41,740 nucleotides of DNA from Saprospiraceae bacterium. Lineage in GTDB: Bacteria > Bacteroidota > Bacteroidia > Chitinophagales > Saprospiraceae. Numbering within the stretch: the first letter of the stretch is position 1; every line of letters begins with the position of its first letter. The DNA is taken from assembly GCA_013001975.1 (NCBI GenBank), contig JABDKX010000253.1, positions 1 to 41,740 of the forward strand, written 5' to 3'. The notes below the pieces were generated by a model, which worked only from the letters and a program-made list of their open reading frames with translations, was not told the origin of the DNA and ran no database searches. This document shows, piece after piece, positions 1 to 7,830 of this stretch. Both the position numbers and the translations under genes were made by a program.

Positions 1-612
1 TTATTAAGTAAAGAAGTAGAAAAAAAGATCACAGACATGTTAAGTGATATCATCAATACTGCAGACTCAGGCGTAGGGATTGCTATTGGAAATCTTGATA
101 AAAATATCAACGAATCCGTATCACGAATATTTAGAAATCTAGATGCTAACCTTTCTTCTTTAGACAAACAAATTGTACAAGTTTTCTCTAAAACATTAAG
201 AGATTCTTTAACTGGTTTTATAAATGGATTTGTTGAAGATGTAGATCTTAAAGCACTGTCCTCCAAAATAAGTACTGATTTATTAAGTGTTGAATTAAGA
301 GACACCTTATTATCCATTGCAAGAGAAGTTAAAAAAGAAGTTCCGCTTAAAGAGGATGTAACCGACATCATCGGTGTTATCAAAGAAAATGCTACAAGCA
401 TCATTCTTTTGCTCGGAGCCATTATTGCTGGCTTAATGTTTTTAAGAGCGAGACTGAAAAAGAAAAGAGAAGAAGATTTAGATATAGCATCCGTTGTTCA
501 TAAAGCCATGAATGATGATGAAGCATTTAAAAATAAATTAGAGAAAATGCTCGCTGATAAAAACAGGTTAGAAGATTTTAAAAAACGTATTGATAAATAT
601 AAAGATTCATAG
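1..612 (+). CDS. Single-pass membrane protein with helical exported or cytosolic domains, 5' end outside window
   Basis: The reading frame is open to the first base of the window, so the gene probably starts upstream; the first ATG inside is at 37 and gives 191 residues. Numbered from that ATG, residues 1-110 are polar and helical, rich in D/N/S/K. One transmembrane segment follows at about 117-137, then a basic stretch (RARLKKKREED) and a charged C-terminal tail. By the positive-inside rule the tail should be cytoplasmic. I do not recognise the family. The next gene, a giant membrane-GMC oxidoreductase fusion, begins within 30 bases, so the two are probably co-transcribed and may act in one membrane complex. 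That link is inference from spacing. Confidence 0.75.
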   Translation, partial: LLSKEVEKKITDMLSDIINTADSGVGIAIGNLDKNINESVSRIFRNLDANLSSLDKQIVQVFSKTLRDSLTGFINGFVEDVDLKALSSKISTDLLSVELRDTLLSIAREVKKEVPLKEDVTDIIGVIKENATSIILLLGAIIAGLMFLRARLKKKREEDLDIASVVHKAMNDDEAFKNKLEKMLADKNRLEDFKKRIDKYKDS

Positions 613-640
613 TTAATGATTGACAATTAATTTAAGGGAT

Positions 641-3600
641 ATGATACTACCAATAAACTTCAAAGGCTTTATAAAAGCAGACCCACTTGACAAATTTGAT
701 GGGAGAACAGGATTATTTATTCACATGGCAGTCACCTTGTTCTTTTGTGTGCTTCTTTTATATCTCATCGATCCAGTTTTAGAAATTGTCTTTTTTAAAA
801 ATAATTTTATAAAAGTCTTAGAAGTTGTATTATTTGTAGGAATTTATGCCCCACTTATTTATTCGTTAAGAAAATCGAGTTCTCTCTTACATTACTTATT
901 GATTTTTATACCGCTTTTCTTTTGCGATATACTACTAGAGTCTTCGTGTGCAAGGTCGGTAGCTGATAAAGCCCTTTGGAATTACTACCCTGGTTCTTTC
1001 CTTGAAGAGATCAACCCTAAAGCGCTCAGGTACTTTTTTACAGTATCTGTTGACGCGCTTTTATTTGGCCCAGTATGTTTGTGGGTTAGTCGACTGATAT
1101 CTACGTGGAAGGAGATTAAGCCCGAAAAAAAATTGTTTAATCTAGAAAGCCATGAAGCCCTTTTTACAGAAAGCAGAACGACAGATATGATGTCCTTCCC
1201 ACCTAGAAGGTATGGTGAAGAATTAAAAAAGGACAGCTTTATAGAAAAGTTTAAACTGGATCCTGATTTCTATTTGTTGCGTTTTATTGGCATAGGATTT
1301 ATGATTTATCTATCCGCTCTTTTTATGGGTAGTTTAGGCATAAACTCATACAGCGAAGCCAATAATTATCTTCCACAAGAATTGGAAGAATTAATAGACC
1401 AACAAGAAGAAGGAATTCGTATTAGTGATTCTGAAATTATAAGTACTATAGAAAAAACAGAAAATCTTATTATAGAAAACAGCTTAAATAAATTATTAAA
1501 CGGCAATTATAAAGTTCCTGGTTTATTATCACTGTTACAAAATGAAATGGAAAATACGCCCCAAGAAAAGAGGAGGGAGGTAGCAGAAAATATTATCAAA
1601 GATTTTAAATCACAGAATTTGGCTTCAGACATTAATTCCGATTTATTAAAACAGGAAAATGAAGTTATCATCAAGCAAGTTAAAAAGACACTTTCAAAAT
1701 CTGACTTCGACCACATCGCATTGTCAACAGCACAAATTATTGATAGTGCAAGTTTGAAAAAATACCAAGCGCCTGTTATAAATGCGTTTAATACATTAGA
1801 AGGTGAAAATTTAAAAAAGCATTTAATTTCGCTAACAGGTGTTCCCATTTGGCCAACATTTTTATCTGACCTTATGACAGATACTTATAGTAATCCGATC
1901 CACGGTGTCCATACTTATGGAAAAATTTCAATAATGATTTTACTGATCTTTTTAGCAGCATTTAATATTCGTATTCGATACTATGCTTTGTTATGTTTGA
2001 TTGGTGGTCATGTTGTTTCTACGCTTTTTTCATTTCTCTTTTTCTATAAAGGAAGCGGCAACGAATTTTTATTTGCCTCTGGCATTGTAGATGGTGTCAT
2101 GTTACTCATTTTAATAACATTTTTATATCGTTCCTATACAGACAAAGGAGACGAATTTAAAGCCATCAAAGGATTTCCAAATTCATTTTCCTTAGCGGTT
2201 GTTGGGCAAAACTTACTCTTCTATTTTTTGTCAATTCTATTTATAGGCTATTTCATTTTTATCTTATTAAGCAAATATTTGCATATTGCTTTTTTCGAAA
2301 AATTCCACAATCTGTATGCTCTACCAGAAGCAATGTTGGTAAACACACTAACCTATCTGATGACACTTTCAATTGTTGCTTATTTGTGTGCGAAGAATAG
2401 AAAGCTCAGGCGATTCCTTGTTCAAACGATAACAGATCCCATTAAGATAAGTATGATCGTTGCCATTGTTTGGTTTAGCTTAAAGAATATCGGTACCAGT
2501 CCTTTTACTTTTGCTGGAGCCAATGCTTATCTTCTAATTTATATCATAATAGGAAGCTTTATATTAATATTGATTAATGTCTTTAGAAAATTAGAATACA
2601 ATATAGATTATCTGCTAACGTCCTTACATCCGGCGGAAGCAGCAACAGCGCATGCTGTTATAGAAAGTTTTTATGGACCAGAGAATGTTGATGGTTTTGC
2701 AGCAGTCAAAAAGATAGATAACTATATTGGAAACATCAGGGGCAGAAAGCGTGGCCTCATAAATTTTCCTTTCCATTTTTTGGAAAACATATTAAGTCCT
2801 TTTCTTGGATTAAGACCTCGATTTTCAACGATGTCCATTGAAGAAAGAAACCTCTTTCTAAAGCGCAATATTTTAAAAACACCAAGCGAAGTAAAACGGT
2901 CATTCTCGCCAGAAATTTCAAACATTGCAGGACAAATCGGATTATCGATAAGAGCGTTATGTGCATTAGCCCATTTAACTTCTAAGAAAGGGCATGAACA
3001 TGTAAAGTATGTAGAACCAGACATTAGAGACAGGTTTCAAAAGTTTACAACAAACCAAAAACCACCTTATTCAAAAATAGCTGAACTACCAAAATCGAAA
3101 GATGACTCAAAAAATTATCACCCAGATGAGCAAATTAATTCTGGAGATATTCCTTCATTTAGAGTTCAAGCTAATAATCAAAATTATAAACTCAAACAAT
3201 CTTACGATTATATCATAGTTGGTTCTGGAGCAGGTGGCGCCGTTATGGCTTATCGCCTAGCACAAGAAAATGGTATAGAACCCTCTGACATTTTATTGGT
3301 AGAAAGAGGTCCTAGATGTTCACACACCAATGATATGTCAGATGATGAATTGAGTATGCTAGCCAAATTATACAAAGAAGGCGGATTACAACAAACAAAG
3401 AAATTTGATATGGTCTTACTTCAAGGTGAAGCATTAGGCGGAACAACTGTCATTAATAATGCAGTATGTTTTGAAATGACCGAAGCGACAAAGCAGGTTT
3501 GGCAAGAAGAATATGGGTTAGACTTAAGTGAATTGCAAAAACACTACGATTTGGTAAAGGATGAAATTAATATTCATCCACTTGATGAGAGCGCCATAAA

Positions 3601-4726
3601 CCAAAATGTAAGAACCAAGTTTATTTCGGGTGTCAACGCATATAACCAATCAAATAACAAAACAAGTTTAAGATTAGTAGATCATGTATTAGTTAATTCA
3701 AGAAATGAGTTGGGTGATGGTCTTTGGAATTTAGGTAATAAGAGAGGAAGAAAAACATCTATGGCAGAAACATATATTCCTTGGGCAGAAGGACTGGGTA
3801 TACATGTTACAACTGAAACGAATGCGCTGCGATTCTATTCCGATTCAGAAGATCCTAATTGGAATAAAAAAACAGCACAAAAAATATTACTTCAAATTGG
3901 CAAAAGAGACATAAAGGAAATTCAAGTCAATAAGAGCCTTATCGTCGCTGGAGGTTGTTTGGCTTCAAGTCATTTCTTAATGAGAAGTAATGTATTTAAA
4001 AATATAGGAAAAAACTTGGCGTGTAATTACGCATTTCCATTAATATTTGAATACGATGATAAGATAAATGCATATGATGGTGCACAAATAACGGTTGCAG
4101 CTATAGAAAATGAAACGAATGCTGTTTTTGAAACGTATTTTAATCCGCCTGGTGCATTTTCATTAACCCTTCCATTTAATTTCCAAACAAACTTGGAAAT
4201 CATGGAAAATTATGATCAGTGTCTGAGTTTTGGAATTCTTATTGGATCAGAAAATTCAGGTCTTATACAATCTAAAGCTGATGCATTTTCAGGAAGAGCT
4301 TTTGGTTTTAAATTAGAACCTGAGGAGAGAATTAAAATAAAAAATAGCTTTATTACGCTTCTTAAAATCGCTAAAAAATCTGGCGCCAAACACGCGTACT
4401 TACCACTCAAACCAGGTATTAAATTAGACATGAGAGATGATACAGCATTTGAAGCATTTATATCTGAATTTGAAAATTATACATTATTACAAGAAGAGAT
4501 AGTTTTAAGCAGTGCCCATCCACAAGGAGGGAATATGATGGCTGGATCAGTAGAAGAAAAGAAAGGCAAAAGAGCTGTTGATGAAAATTTCAAACTTGTA
4601 GATCATACTAACGTATATGTTGTAGATGCTTCAATATTCCCTACGAGTCTGGGTGTAAATCCACAATGGACAGTAATGGCAATGTCATCTTTAGCTTCAG
4701 AAATAATTATAAAAAATAATTCGTAA
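641..4726 (+). CDS. Giant multi-pass membrane protein fused to a C-terminal GMC-family flavin oxidoreductase
   Basis: About 1361 residues from ATG 641; a TTG at 620 in the same frame would add seven residues, but ATG is preferred. The first ~650 residues carry many hydrophobic segments (roughly 12-15 helices), interrupted at about 240-410 by a charged helical domain with no membrane segment. A soluble linker (~690-850) leads to a GMC (glucose-methanol-choline) domain with the FAD dinucleotide motif YDYIIVGSGAGG near residue 855. The family's C-terminal active-site elements are present: a histidine in SSAHPQGG (~1292) and an asparagine in NPQWTVMA (~1340). GMC enzymes oxidise alcohols and usually have 500-600 residues, so the membrane half is extra. 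The region just before the GMC core resembles long-chain fatty-alcohol oxidases, suggesting a lipid or sterol alcohol substrate; that is inference. The stop codon overlaps the next start (TAATG). Confidence 0.85.
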   Translation: MILPINFKGFIKADPLDKFDGRTGLFIHMAVTLFFCVLLLYLIDPVLEIVFFKNNFIKVLEVVLFVGIYAPLIYSLRKSSSLLHYLLIFIPLFFCDILLESSCARSVADKALWNYYPGSFLEEINPKALRYFFTVSVDALLFGPVCLWVSRLISTWKEIKPEKKLFNLESHEALFTESRTTDMMSFPPRRYGEELKKDSFIEKFKLDPDFYLLRFIGIGFMIYLSALFMGSLGINSYSEANNYLPQELEELIDQQEEGIRISDSEIISTIEKTENLIIENSLNKLLNGNYKVPGLLSLLQNEMENTPQEKRREVAENIIKDFKSQNLASDINSDLLKQENEVIIKQVKKTLSKSDFDHIALSTAQIIDSASLKKYQAPVINAFNTLEGENLKKHLISLTGVPIWPTFLSDLMTDTYSNPIHGVHTYGKISIMILLIFLAAFNIRIRYYALLCLIGGHVVSTLFSFLFFYKGSGNEFLFASGIVDGVMLLILITFLYRSYTDKGDEFKAIKGFPNSFSLAVVGQNLLFYFLSILFIGYFIFILLSKYLHIAFFEKFHNLYALPEAMLVNTLTYLMTLSIVAYLCAKNRKLRRFLVQTITDPIKISMIVAIVWFSLKNIGTSPFTFAGANAYLLIYIIIGSFILILINVFRKLEYNIDYLLTSLHPAEAATAHAVIESFYGPENVDGFAAVKKIDNYIGNIRGRKRGLINFPFHFLENILSPFLGLRPRFSTMSIEERNLFLKRNILKTPSEVKRSFSPEISNIAGQIGLSIRALCALAHLTSKKGHEHVKYVEPDIRDRFQKFTTNQKPPYSKIAELPKSKDDSKNYHPDEQINSGDIPSFRVQANNQNYKLKQSYDYIIVGSGAGGAVMAYRLAQENGIEPSDILLVERGPRCSHTNDMSDDELSMLAKLYKEGGLQQTKKFDMVLLQGEALGGTTVINNAVCFEMTEATKQVWQEEYGLDLSELQKHYDLVKDEINIHPLDESAINQNVRTKFISGVNAYNQSNNKTSLRLVDHVLVNSRNELGDGLWNLGNKRGRKTSMAETYIPWAEGLGIHVTTETNALRFYSDSEDPNWNKKTAQKILLQIGKRDIKEIQVNKSLIVAGGCLASSHFLMRSNVFKNIGKNLACNYAFPLIFEYDDKINAYDGAQITVAAIENETNAVFETYFNPPGAFSLTLPFNFQTNLEIMENYDQCLSFGILIGSENSGLIQSKADAFSGRAFGFKLEPEERIKIKNSFITLLKIAKKSGAKHAYLPLKPGIKLDMRDDTAFEAFISEFENYTLLQEEIVLSSAHPQGGNMMAGSVEEKKGKRAVDENFKLVDHTNVYVVDASIFPTSLGVNPQWTVMAMSSLASEIIIKNNS

Positions 4727-5121
4727 TGGACGATTTTAAATTTTACTACTTTCTTGTAGGTGCTTTGGTTTTTGGCGTCTCAGCTCTTATGGTAATACTT
4801 GAGTTTGGACTGTCACTTAATAAAACACAAAAGGATAATATCAATTATCACATTAACGCTTGGTCTTCTGAGAGATTTTATTTTATAAATTTTGCTTGGG
4901 GCGTTGTCGGTGGTCATTTATTCTTGGGTTCTAAGTCTCCCATCATACCAGAAAATACTGTTAGTGTCATCGTTGTGGCTGTTATTTCATTAATAATGAT
5001 CATCCATGGTGTCTGCTTTTTAAAAGAAAAAAGAATATCTCTTTCAACAAGAATATTTCTATTGCTCACAGGATTTATAGCGGGTCACATGCTATGGTCA
5101 ATGAATGATTATGTATTATGA
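4726..5121 (+). CDS. Small four-helix membrane protein, partner of the GMC fusion
   Basis: 131 residues. The ATG overlaps the stop of the GMC fusion gene by one base (TAATG) and its own stop overlaps the next start (ATGA), so translation is probably coupled to both neighbours. Four hydrophobic segments are visible. Two of them contain a glycine-histidine pair in a similar setting: WGVVGGHLFLGS at about 58-69 and FIAGHMLWS at about 117-125. Histidines inside helices can bind haem or a metal, and a small cytochrome-like electron acceptor for a membrane-bound oxidase would make sense here, but nothing in the sequence proves it. I do not recognise the family. Confidence 0.75.
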   Translation: MDDFKFYYFLVGALVFGVSALMVILEFGLSLNKTQKDNINYHINAWSSERFYFINFAWGVVGGHLFLGSKSPIIPENTVSVIVVAVISLIMIIHGVCFLKEKRISLSTRIFLLLTGFIAGHMLWSMNDYVL

Positions 5122-5738
5122 AAAAGATAAATAAATGGATGACCCAATCCGTGAATAAGGCGTCAAACGCATGGGATAGTTCAATAATTGAAAATGTAAA
5201 AAAATTCTTACTATTTATTTTCGTAGTCTTGATCGTTGCTGATGTCGCTTTTGTTTTTACGGACGAGCTACCTACCATCAGTCAAGTGGTTCTAGACTCA
5301 TCACCTAAGTATCTGATCTTCATTTTTCTTTTTGGATTAGCTACTGCAAACATATTTTTTAAACGTCCTTTGGGTAGTCGTTTGGTTTCTGAAACCAAAG
5401 CTGTAATTATCCTGACGCTTTCTATTTTAGGTTTGGTTCTTTGGGGTCTTAATATCAATGACGATAACATCAATTGCGACAATTTCAACCAAATTAAAGC
5501 TTCCCCGATTTACCAAATTGTTTGTAAAGAGTGTATGGAAGATCGTCAGCAATATTTGAACAGTAATTGTAATAAAGTTACAAAAGCTATGTGCAGTGAT
5601 CCAAGTCGAACATTCGATTTTAAATTAGATTTGACAACTGAGATCAAACTTATTCTGCTTTTTGGAGGGTTCATTTTTGGATTCCTTTTTTGGCCTCAAT
5701 TCCAATATCCTGACGAGCATTTAAGAACTTCATTTTAA
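5118..5738 (+). CDS. Membrane protein with a five-cysteine loop, last intact gene of the GMC operon
   Basis: 206 residues, starting inside the stop of the preceding gene (ATGA overlap). Hydrophobic segments lie at about 27-47, 63-82, 93-111 and 180-198. Between the third and fourth helix is a polar loop with five cysteines (INCDN, IVCKECMED, NSNCNK, AMCSD), probably outside the cytoplasm where disulfides could form. I do not recognise the family. The overlaps with its neighbours make a shared complex with the GMC oxidoreductase the simplest reading. A further ATG overlaps its stop codon but leads into only 12 codons. Confidence 0.72.
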   Translation: MKKINKWMTQSVNKASNAWDSSIIENVKKFLLFIFVVLIVADVAFVFTDELPTISQVVLDSSPKYLIFIFLFGLATANIFFKRPLGSRLVSETKAVIILTLSILGLVLWGLNINDDNINCDNFNQIKASPIYQIVCKECMEDRQQYLNSNCNKVTKAMCSDPSRTFDFKLDLTTEIKLILLFGGFIFGFLFWPQFQYPDEHLRTSF

Positions 5739-5776
5739 TGGCTAAAGGAATTTCAATCCAAACCTGTTCCACTTAG
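5738..5776 (+). other. Twelve-codon ORF coupled to the end of the GMC operon, possible gene remnant
   Basis: A TAATG junction, as seen between the genes upstream, opens a frame reading MAKGISIQTCST and then TAG. The coupling pattern suggests that another gene once followed and has been lost or truncated. It could equally be chance in AT-rich DNA. Confidence 0.25.
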
Positions 5777-5801
5777 ACTTAGTGTGAGGTATATAATTAA
5801 A

Positions 5802-6152
5802 TTAATTGGGTTTAACTAAGGATGCATTTCCAATATTGTAATAGGAATAAACTTCCTTAATTAAATCGTCTTGAAGAATATACCATTCACAAACGCGCAT
5901 TGTTCCTTTTTCACTTATTTGATTATATCGGATACATACCTTGTTGCCTTCTGAAATTTGCTCAAAATTTTCAAACTTGTGATTTAGAAAAGCCTCTTTA
6001 TTACTATGAACAATTTCCAAATATTCAGCTGCAGAATCAATCACACCAAACGGACTTGTGTGCTTAAAATCTTTTGATATTGGAATATCTTCAAAGTTTC
6101 CATTTTGCCAAATTAAAAACCACTTTTTTAGGACTGGATGTAATTGATTCAT
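5802..6152 (-). CDS. SnoaL/NTF2-like fold protein
   Basis: 116 residues, the usual size of a single SnoaL/NTF2-like cone-shaped alpha+beta domain. The pattern fits: an N-terminal helix (HPVLKKWFLIWQNGNFEDI), a short strand with HTSPFG, then alternating helix and strands (NKVCIRYNQ, MRVCEWYILQDDLIKEVYSYY). In this superfamily the pocket binds small hydrophobic molecules or simply supports dimerisation; no function can be assigned from sequence alone. No signal peptide, so cytoplasmic. It stands alone, with the GMC operon converging on it from the other strand and no close partner. Confidence 0.65.
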   Translation of the reverse strand: MNQLHPVLKKWFLIWQNGNFEDIPISKDFKHTSPFGVIDSAAEYLEIVHSNKEAFLNHKFENFEQISEGNKVCIRYNQISEKGTMRVCEWYILQDDLIKEVYSYYNIGNASLVKPN

Positions 6153-6348
6153 AGTCGATGTCAGGTTAAAAATAAATAATAATTCATTAAAGATAAATTA
6201 TTGAAATCACACCAGATAAAAAGCAAGTAAAACAATCTTCTAATACATCTTTAATATCTAAATGAACTTGTGTTGGCGTTAGAAACTGAACCTGATGGTA
6301 TTCGCAAACACCTGGAATGCAGACAAATTAAACACCAATACAATAAAA

Positions 6349-6390
6349 AACGACCCAGATATAAATCCAGGTCGTTCTTTTATTTTTTAT
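6349..6390. terminator. Bidirectional hairpin terminator
   Basis: AACGACC (6349-6355) pairs with GGTCGTT (6370-6376); after a 2x2 internal mismatch, CAG-side bases add three more pairs around the loop ATAA. T-rich tracts follow on both strands. It lies 60 nt past the stop of the minus-strand DUF4382 gene, so that gene is its likely client. Confidence 0.65.
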
Positions 6391-6447
6391 TGAAACAAAC
6401 TTCTATTCCTTTATGAATAATTCAAAGGGAGGAATCGAATATTTTGA

Positions 6448-7395
6448 TTATCCTATCCCAAGAATAAGCAGAGATAAATCTAAGTTACTTTGAGAAGATA
6501 TTTCCAAATTGGTTAAATTCAACAGGTTTGTCTGTGATTGAACTTGAAGTTTTCCCTTCATCTCAAGTTGTCCCTTTTCGTCTTCATCATAACCATAAAA
6601 ATGAAGTTCATATTCGCCCTCTTGAAGGAAACTAAGTTGAAACTTATTGTTACTATCAACCTTTGAACTGCTTACCGCATTAGTAAATTGAAGGTTGGTT
6701 TCAGAATCAACTTTCATTTCTGTTTCAGCATTAAACTCTCCCTTGTTATAGACATAGACTATAATTTCATCACTATAATCTACAACAGAGCTGCATTCTC
6801 CTTTAATGTGAGAATCTTCTTTAGAAGATACTCTGATAGCAGTTTCCAGTTTGGTTCTTGATACAAAATCATAATTATCATTATTTGATTCTTCCTTTTT
6901 GATACACTTTCGCAGATCAAAATCAAGAACCAAATTTGTGTTAGACGATTCTGAGGTTTCAATATCTGATGCCAATGTTACAATTGTTTCGTTTGCCAAC
7001 AGAGCATGGGCATTTCCATCCGAGTCCAAGATATAACATCCATGAGGATGGACATTGTTGTTATTACTCTCTGGAGTTAATTTCAAATCAATTGAGGAAT
7101 AACTCTTTGCATCAACATTAAAGTCTCCCAATTTGTAAGTGTCACCGTTTTGATACGCTAATAAATCGACAGTTGTACTTGTGAAACCTTCCACTTCTAC
7201 ACCATCCAAATATATTTCAGATATCGTTACGAAACAGGCCTGGACTTCTGCATTATCAATTGGAGCGTCGGTCACATCAATGCTTAATCGTGCATTTTTT
7301 TCTTCATTGCCAGAAGATAAATTATCGTCATTGCTACATGATTGGATTAATAATCCAATAAACAGAGCCATTAAAAGAAAATTACATTTTTTCAT
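6448..7395 (-). CDS. DUF4382 domain lipoprotein
   Basis: 315 residues. The N terminus is a lipoprotein signal ending in the lipobox LIQSC, followed by an acidic spacer (SNDDNLSSGNEEKN). Residues ~35-165 match the DUF4382 pattern seen in Bacteroidota exported proteins: ARLSIDVTDAPIDNAEVQACFVTI, then a strand reading SEIYLDGVEVEGF. The C-terminal third looks like one or two beta-sandwich segments (EYELHFYGYDEDEKG). The role of DUF4382 is unknown; these proteins are presumed to sit on the periplasmic side or the cell surface. The gene stands alone with its own terminator downstream. Confidence 0.75.
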   Translation of the reverse strand: MKKCNFLLMALFIGLLIQSCSNDDNLSSGNEEKNARLSIDVTDAPIDNAEVQACFVTISEIYLDGVEVEGFTSTTVDLLAYQNGDTYKLGDFNVDAKSYSSIDLKLTPESNNNNVHPHGCYILDSDGNAHALLANETIVTLASDIETSESSNTNLVLDFDLRKCIKKEESNNDNYDFVSRTKLETAIRVSSKEDSHIKGECSSVVDYSDEIIVYVYNKGEFNAETEMKVDSETNLQFTNAVSSSKVDSNNKFQLSFLQEGEYELHFYGYDEDEKGQLEMKGKLQVQSQTNLLNLTNLEISSQSNLDLSLLILGIG

Positions 7396-7756: not shown

Positions 7757-7830
7757 TAGCGTGAGGCGGGCTTGAACCGCCGACCTCGGGATTATGAATC
7801 ACGCGCTCTAACCAGCTGAGCTACCACGCC
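7757..7830 (-). tRNA. tRNA-Met, anticodon CAT
   Basis: 74 nt cloverleaf. The acceptor stem GGCGTGG pairs with TCACGCT (two G-U pairs), the D stem is GCTC/GAGC, the T arm GGCGG-TTCAAGC-CCGCC, the discriminator is A, and CCA is not encoded. The anticodon loop TTCATAA gives CAU. The anticodon stem CGTGA/TCCCG has a U-C mismatch at the middle pair. The stem lacks the three G-C pairs of initiator tRNA and position 1 pairs with 72 (G-U), so an elongator tRNA-Met, or a CAU tRNA modified to read AUA, is more likely than initiator. Confidence 0.93.

Follow-up and report, generated by a model that had tools for sequence, protein, structure and literature searches.

Background

GMC oxidoreductases are usually soluble, secreted, or held at the membrane by partner subunits or by one or two helices, and their chemistry is the transfer of a hydride to flavin adenine dinucleotide (FAD) with the help of a His/Asn pair. 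Several described systems share parts of the anatomy of the protein treated here. Fatty alcohol oxidase (FAO) of plants and yeast is likewise associated with membranes, and the long-chain FAO/LCAO enzymes as well as bacterial FAO-like proteins have a helical region ahead of the GMC domain, as does our protein; the fructose and FAD glucose dehydrogenases combine the GMC fold with membrane binding, the latter being mediated by separate small and cytochrome c subunits; cholesterol oxidase and choline dehydrogenase carry the FAD motif and the His/Asn pair; and the respiratory GMC alcohol dehydrogenases of the AlkJ and MftG types, being GMC enzymes on a membrane electron chain, might work in a similar manner. 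The last two groups are not known to carry a fused membrane domain of 12 transmembrane (TM) helices. A GMC enzyme with such a predicted domain on the same polypeptide is encoded at the edge of contig JABDKX010000253.1 of a Saprospiraceae bacterium (assembly GCA_013001975.1, a 4.2-Mb draft genome). The entire contig of 41,740 nucleotides was analyzed and is referred to as the window; the genes under study begin at its first nucleotide and lie on the forward (+) strand.

A GMC enzyme fused to a 12-helix membrane domain

Judged by sequence comparison, the fusion of a GMC enzyme to a 12-TM domain is a real, conserved and rare architecture. It is present in 17 genomes (the window and 16 others) from the Bacteroidota, Ignavibacteriota and Myxococcota, recurring in distant Bacteroidota as well as beyond that phylum. 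In the window, the protein is encoded in a single open frame at 620–4726, which would yield 1368 aa from TTG 620. Since its relatives align from ATG 641, the latter is the more likely start codon, giving a protein of 1361 aa (641–4726) in which Pfam, alignment, hydropathy and structural modeling delineate the 12-TM domain, a helical linker and the GMC flavin domain. Residue numbers count from ATG 641 unless stated otherwise.

The 17 loci comprise 15 retrieved by scanning one genome per species with a profile, the window, and one further genome (G401, locus L022), counted as distinct because its contig and sequence are unlike those of all 15 scan loci; L021 and L023 duplicate the contigs of L024 and L026, respectively, and each contig was counted once. 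The scan returned loci from Bacteroidota (Chitinophagaceae, Cytophagales and Spirosoma telluris), Ignavibacteria, Hyalangium versicolor (Myxococcota) and a deltaproteobacterial metagenome-assembled genome. Twelve of the other copies are full length (1162–1199 aa), one (L026) is cut by a contig end, two (L028 and L037) are fragmented, and that of L038, where genes are poorly called, was aligned from a frame of 1278 aa. The alignment consists of the window and 13 other rows, 13 of these 14 rows (window included) forming the full-length set. Rarity is evident at several taxonomic levels. The N-terminal half was found in 4 of 395 genomes of the phylum and in 1 of 14 of the genus, the window's own genome being among the former and the sole hit among the latter, and a profile search detected 2 of 396 genomes of the order, again including our own. 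With the full protein as query, 11 of 199 genomes of the family matched at E <= 1e-20, the 10 others solely through residues 851–1364, i.e. the GMC part. When plasmids were searched with the fusion, 16 records matched, and the 15 matches listed cover the GMC part only, at 21–25% identity. Among the papers that our literature searches brought up, as far as their content was accessible, none was recognized as treating a GMC enzyme with a 12-TM fusion. As a side observation, two copies appear disrupted: the S. telluris fusion (L037, 9989–13508) is split over three open frames, by decay or sequence errors, and the frame at L028 (4650–8186) stops early, its end continuing in a second, separate frame.

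The C-terminal part (3206–4723), predicted to be cytoplasmic, is by profile and motif a member of the GMC oxidoreductase superfamily, with Pfam matches to GMC_oxred_N (E 7e-21, 75.5 bits versus a cutoff of 23) and GMC_oxred_C (E 1e-13, 52.2 versus 24.6 bits) over residues 915–1355, in line with hhalign and with the predicted fold of the relative L024. The FAD and His/Asn active-site motifs that had been described as intact are all there: GSGAGG (GSG.GG in 14/14 rows), AHPQGGN with the presumed catalytic His1293 (4517–4519; motif in 13/13 full-length rows) and NPQWT with the presumed catalytic Asn1340 (4658–4660; NPQ.T in 13/13), L028, L037 and L038 lying outside these motif counts. In the GMC family, the latter two motifs carry the catalytic His and Asn. 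Beyond the superfamily, the fusion belongs to none of the GMC subfamilies that the searched libraries name, because the relevant cutoffs are all widely missed: cholesterol oxidase NF058674 scores 52.7 bits for the window and 64.4 for L024 versus an equivalog cutoff of 850, the NCBIfam profiles for choline dehydrogenase BetA give 46.4 versus 605 and 26.8 versus 732.1 bits for the window (also 47.1 versus 605), and those for the mycofactocin dehydrogenase MftG 45.5 versus 400 and 30.9 versus 387.45 bits. In a Foldseek search with the model of L024 (predicted local distance difference test, pLDDT, 73.4; predicted template modeling score, pTM, 0.68), the matches were GMC structures, membrane-bound fructose dehydrogenase coming first and forming the top fold matches together with FAD glucose dehydrogenase, with spruce alcohol oxidase (8s2y) at ranks 32–33. 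Different from these dehydrogenases, which use separate subunits, the membrane part is here fused to the enzyme and gave no match to a cytochrome family. A Pfam scan of the six neighbouring genes revealed no gene for a small subunit or cytochrome c, the upstream side being truncated at the contig start.

Ahead of the GMC domain lies the helical linker (2627–3205), defined by alignment and bearing a GRKRG..N.PF motif; it has no Pfam match above cutoff, and its comparison with the N-terminal domain of FAO-like GMC proteins was not significant (hhalign E 0.11). The GMC profile itself aligns over 473 columns with eight FAO-like proteins from the same bacterial family (L005–L008, L010–L013; hhalign E 6e-43), the sole GMC set compared. 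Their frames of 665–693 aa are too short for a 12-TM domain, unlike the fusion, and a Gluconate_2-dh3 domain (PF13618), above cutoff in L006 and below it in L007, is found neither in L011 nor in the fusion. The idea that FAO-like proteins are the nearest GMC relatives was dropped, as hhalign covered that set only and as L004, the best family match to the full protein, lacks the FAO-like N-terminal domain; the same applies to L009 (frames of 501 and 564 aa, respectively).

Membrane domain and its buried polar residues

The initial annotation had described about 650 residues of multi-pass membrane protein with a charged domain of its own ahead of the GMC enzyme, and this picture was borne out: 12 hydrophobic segments are discernible in the window fusion as well as in L024 (10 to 12 across the eight rows examined), arranged as TM helices 1–5 (641–1339) and 6–12 (1850–2626) around a charged stretch of about 170 residues. 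An AlphaFold2 model of the N-terminal 665 residues shows 12 long helices of good local confidence, at a mean pLDDT of 69.5 and a pTM of 0.58, with much of the insert poorly modeled. From the pattern of hydropathy and charge, the N-terminus and the GMC domain are predicted to be cytoplasmic and the insert periplasmic. The N-terminal half matched no characterized domain family: its first 650 residues gave nothing above cutoff in Pfam or NCBIfam and no significant match in PHROGs or PDB sequences, a search of PDB sequences with the 14-row profile was empty at E <= 10, and Foldseek of the model against the PDB yielded nothing at E <= 0.001 (best 8xqw_O, E 1.2, probability 0.69, not significant). 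Two ideas on its internal build were considered. A tandem repeat of TM 5–8 and TM 9–12 gave an hhalign E value of 4.9e-5 (reversed control 0.17), but 2 of 100 shuffles of 12-column blocks reach this value and three pairs were compared, leaving the repeat unproven; a supposed likeness of the four-helix units to a four-helix protein near the L022 fusion failed when tested.

The most telling feature of the domain is a set of polar residues inside its helices. In a comparison of 17 rows, with helices assigned from the L024 model, Lys253, His282, Ser285, Ser308, Asn394 and Thr397 of L024 are identical throughout, and Asp312 is Asp in 16 rows and Glu in L035; more polar residues near helix ends are identical too, e.g., Arg159, Thr250, Arg271 and Arg416. 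Five of the buried positions correspond in the window to Lys428 in TM6 (L024 Lys253; 1922–1924), His457 in TM7 (His282; 2009–2011), Asp484 in TM8 (Asp312; 2090–2092), and Asn568 and Thr571 in TM10 (Asn394 and Thr397; 2342–2353). The predicted topology would place them in the middle to outer part of TM 6, 7, 8 and 10. The invariance of buried Lys, His, Ser, Asn and Thr in 17/17 rows is our strongest evidence that the membrane part probably does more than anchor the enzyme. A 12-helix fusion with a conserved buried polar site would suggest that flavin chemistry is linked directly to something within the bilayer.

Our leading interpretation, which we put forward tentatively, sees the fusion as an integral membrane flavoenzyme, an alcohol oxidase or dehydrogenase, that acts on a lipid-like alcohol. 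The 12-helix domain would keep the enzyme at the cytoplasmic membrane, on its inner face; the buried Lys-His-Asp-Asn/Thr site would bind or pass a hydroxyl-bearing lipid, or an electron acceptor, between membrane and enzyme; and the cytoplasmic GMC domain would move a hydride from the hydroxyl to FAD via its His/Asn pair. In this scheme, the fusion itself, its conservation, the active-site motifs, the buried polar residues and the neighbouring genes are observed, and topology, lipid substrate, role of the polar site and electron acceptor are all derived indirectly. The alignment with FAO-like proteins fits a lipid alcohol as substrate, in a manner that is not specific. The earlier proposal of a membrane-embedded alcohol or sterol oxidase is thus sustained as to a membrane-embedded GMC enzyme with intact motifs that recurs in distant Bacteroidota, and carried on in tentative form as to the alcohol.

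The main rival, built on the same anatomy, is a respiratory dehydrogenase whose membrane domain is a quinone-binding, proton-handling module that passes electrons from a small alcohol or sugar to the quinone pool, with Lys, His and Asp forming the quinone site. We consider it possible, if rather unlikely. The conserved ionizable residues within TM helices would suit such a role, as would the top fold matches of L024, given the respiratory link of fructose and FAD glucose dehydrogenases, and the weak NCBIfam matches to choline dehydrogenase and MftG. However, the model helices contain only one conserved His, short of the at least two conserved His pairs by which a di-haem cytochrome b type would be recognized, and neither Pfam nor NCBIfam gave a match to a haem, iron-sulfur or quinone-site family; moreover, a lipid agrees better with the lipase and phosphatase genes described below, which neighbour the fusion at 8 of 17 loci. 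A more far-reaching proposal, to which we give no better than doubtful standing, is that the 12-helix domain represents a new intramembrane module for lipid handling or proton/quinone coupling fused to a cytoplasmic flavin oxidase, such that one polypeptide couples membrane-lipid oxidation to transport or to the respiratory chain; this module would have spread over Bacteroidota, Ignavibacteriota and Myxococcota by loss or transfer and would have acquired a lineage-specific periplasmic extension in the window.

The extension in question is the acidic insert of about 170 residues (234–403; 1340–1849) in the loop between TM5 and TM6, identified by alignment, hydropathy and the model, and predicted to be periplasmic. 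It contains 18 Lys/Arg and 27 Asp/Glu residues, is helical at mostly low model confidence, and is found in the window only, none of the 13 other alignment rows having one. Its helical moment is reached by 12 of 500 shuffles. The insert, together with the position of the window on the longest end branch of a tree in which its placement is unresolved (2.14 versus a median of 0.44), might raise the suspicion of a decaying gene copy or a sequencing artefact. In the same vein, the window departs at 31 positions from a residue shared by all 12 other full-length rows (36 of 46 are kept in the TM part, 22 of 27 in the linker and 119 of 135 in the GMC domain). Against this stand an uninterrupted frame of 1361–1368 codons, the retention of active-site motifs and buried polar residues, and a base composition like that of the rest of the contig, so that we regard decay or artefact as very improbable.

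Neighbours of the fusion in other lineages

Further hints come from the genes that accompany the fusion elsewhere. Neighbour counts at the 17 loci were made by sequence clusters, where absence means that no member of those clusters is there, rather than absence by Pfam. A metallophosphoesterase gene stands beside the fusion on the same strand at 7 loci, downstream in L024, L027, L028 (where the second piece of the broken fusion intervenes), L031, L032 and L033, and upstream in L037; these proteins form two clusters without a link at E < 1e-5 (Pfam run on L021, identical to L024, and on L027, L033 and L037). A patatin gene belongs to the gene run of the fusion at 5 loci (L027, L028, L030, L031, L032; Pfam on L027), a KAP NTPase with tetratricopeptide repeats is encoded directly upstream at 3 (L027, L028, L029; Pfam on L027), and a GH19-type gene lies two places upstream at 2 (L031, L032; Pfam on L031). 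In L027 (131–8006), patatin, KAP NTPase with tetratricopeptide repeats, GMC fusion and metallophosphoesterase genes form one tight run; in L031 (8253–8924) and L032 (8317–8985), the GH19-type gene, endolysin-like according to a family search with the L031 copy, precedes patatin and fusion.

The patatin and metallophosphoesterase neighbours are hinting at a lipid substrate, and the occurrence of lipase and phosphatase genes in other lineages lends support to the lipid-alcohol interpretation: in some of them, the alcohol may arise from a membrane lipid whose acyl and phosphate groups the two enzymes remove. If this were true, it would amount to a bacterial route for oxidizing membrane-lipid alcohols, next to a lipase and a phosphatase in some lineages, and the 12-helix domain would merit a family of its own. 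Several points weigh against this interpretation. Nine of the 17 loci, including the window, are without members of the patatin and metallophosphoesterase clusters, several of these loci being short contigs; the link to FAO is not specific, considering the shorter L004 and L009 without the FAO-like N-terminal domain and the insignificant linker comparison; the topology derives from hydropathy and charge only, at the moderate confidence of the two models (pLDDT 69.5 and 73.4); and the substrate assignment is putative. A search of the window's genome with one patatin and one metallophosphoesterase query found nothing, a result that is uninformative as it had no positive control.

The same neighbours would also be compatible with a cassette for antagonism or defence, in which the fusion, once activated, makes peroxide or damages lipids and works alongside a CBASS-type patatin, the KAP NTPase and the endolysin-like GH19 protein. 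Indeed, the L027 patatin passes NCBIfam CBASS_lipase (224.3 versus a cutoff of 200), the L027 KAP protein resembles QatA (212 bits), and the L031 GH19-type protein resembles phage endolysins. Yet L025, L030, L031 and L032 have a common chromosomal setting behind the fusion, unlike a mobile island, which suggests that the gene is resident and not part of a mobile defence cassette: two gene clusters, cluster 6 (a metallo-beta-lactamase fold according to Pfam) and cluster 2, recur in all four and cluster 10 in three, clusters 2 and 10 presumably being sodium symporter-like and PriA-like. Furthermore, the fusion is found without patatin and KAP NTPase at 11 of 17 loci, the window included, nucleotide cyclases not having been searched for. 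A defence function thus appears improbable to us.

Downstream genes P0003 and P0004

Behind the fusion gene follow P0003 (4726–5121), encoding a membrane protein of 131 aa and starting on the last base of the fusion stop codon, and P0004 (5118–5738), encoding a protein of 206 aa with four TM segments. The genes are joined by stop/start overlaps, TAATG at 4724–4728 between fusion and P0003 and ATGA at 5118–5121 between P0003 and P0004. The glycine-histidine pairs within helices and the five-cysteine loop reported earlier are indeed there: P0003 has His64 and His121, each preceded by Gly (GGH and AGH), and Cys 120, 136, 139, 151 and 159 of P0004 share one loop, predicted to be periplasmic. As for the four-gene coupled operon proposed in the initial annotation, both overlaps hold, but they join three genes rather than four because gene 1, whose beginning is cut off by the contig start, ends short of the fusion gene, with 28 bases from its stop to ATG 641 and no overlap. 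Judged by gene spacing, the fusion is probably co-transcribed with P0003 and P0004; a promoter scan of 1–6500 was at chance level (21 found versus 29 expected). The operon has a G+C fraction of 0.334, the same as the rest of the contig, and its base composition gives no sign of recent transfer.

Gene overlap would be in line with one dedicated four-gene complex, in which P0003 with its intrahelical His residues and P0004 with its cysteine loop act as electron donors or acceptors of the GMC enzyme. We rate this as distinctly unlikely, and the claim of dedicated electron-transfer partners was not supported by the genome comparisons. In the 16 other fusion genomes, neither P0003 (best E 0.078) nor P0004 (best E 0.018) has a credible match, so that, as far as tested, the two small genes do not co-occur with the fusion. 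When 297 other relatives were searched with P0003, a single clear match emerged, in genome G114 from the same family (E 2.9e-19), and the next gene there is a relative of P0004 (BLASTP 5e-32), in the same order as in the window; a search of 147 relatives with P0004 gave no credible match (best E 0.0015). The 12-kb contig of G114 that holds the pair contains no fusion, and G114, which is presumably one of the 199 genomes of the family search, is not among the 11 that matched the fusion at E <= 1e-20. Conservation within the pair is mixed: His64 and His121 are kept in the P0003 relative, which speaks for the complex, whereas only three of the five loop cysteines of P0004 (120, 136 and 151) align with cysteines of its relative, whose loop has four. 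Because the pair recurs in G114 without a fusion on the contig, P0003 and P0004 most likely form an independent membrane module of two genes, which happens to stand behind the fusion gene here and is so far known, by sequence similarity, from two genomes. As such, they constitute a recurring pair to be studied separately from the oxidase.

In the G114 module (L059, 2114–3337), helices contain GGH and GH motifs, and a loop bears cysteines. Four weaker P0003 matches were obtained in G026, G131, G158 and G701 (E 8e-4 to 5e-3). That in G026, from the same family, concerns a multi-TM protein of 761 aa (L060, 6292–8577) whose C-terminal part is patatin-like as named from sequence; a single BLASTP comparison gave 24% identity over 91 residues (E 5e-5), and this was taken as a probable composition match. 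The G701 match was discarded, as it crosses five stops and no such gene is listed there. Searches for P0003 in plasmids and for P0004 in phages returned nothing at E <= 0.01.

Gene 1 and the remainder of the window

Upstream of the fusion gene, the open frame of gene 1 (1–612) encodes the 3' part only, 203 aa, its 5' end being lost at the contig start. The product has an amphipathic region, one TM helix (residues 130–148) and a tail rich in Lys and Arg; the helical moment of residues 1–129, the presumed periplasmic part, is reached by 0 of 500 shuffles. Sequence comparison gave no support to the notion that the insert of the fusion is an internal copy of this part. The lack of co-occurrence with the fusion does not fully extend to gene 1: proteins built like it are encoded next to the fusion in L023/L026 and at a distance of one gene from it in L022 (2 of the 16 other genomes) and are similar to one another (E 1e-11). 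The similarity of window gene 1 to these counterparts is not significant (E 0.24 and 0.32), a point that again disfavours the four-gene complex. A two-row profile of the counterparts detected them in 2 of 17 fusion genomes only, besides two matches at E 0.04 and 0.08, and found nothing in G000 at E <= 0.1.

Beyond these genes, the only Rfam match in the window is a tRNA at 7757–7830. A small SnoaL-like protein, below the Pfam cutoff, is encoded at 5802–6152 and converges on the operon, and a clear SnoaL gene follows immediately after the fusion in L022 (6775–7335). Further downstream in the window, at 6448–7395, lies the gene of a DUF4382 protein (Pfam) with a lipoprotein-like N-terminus.

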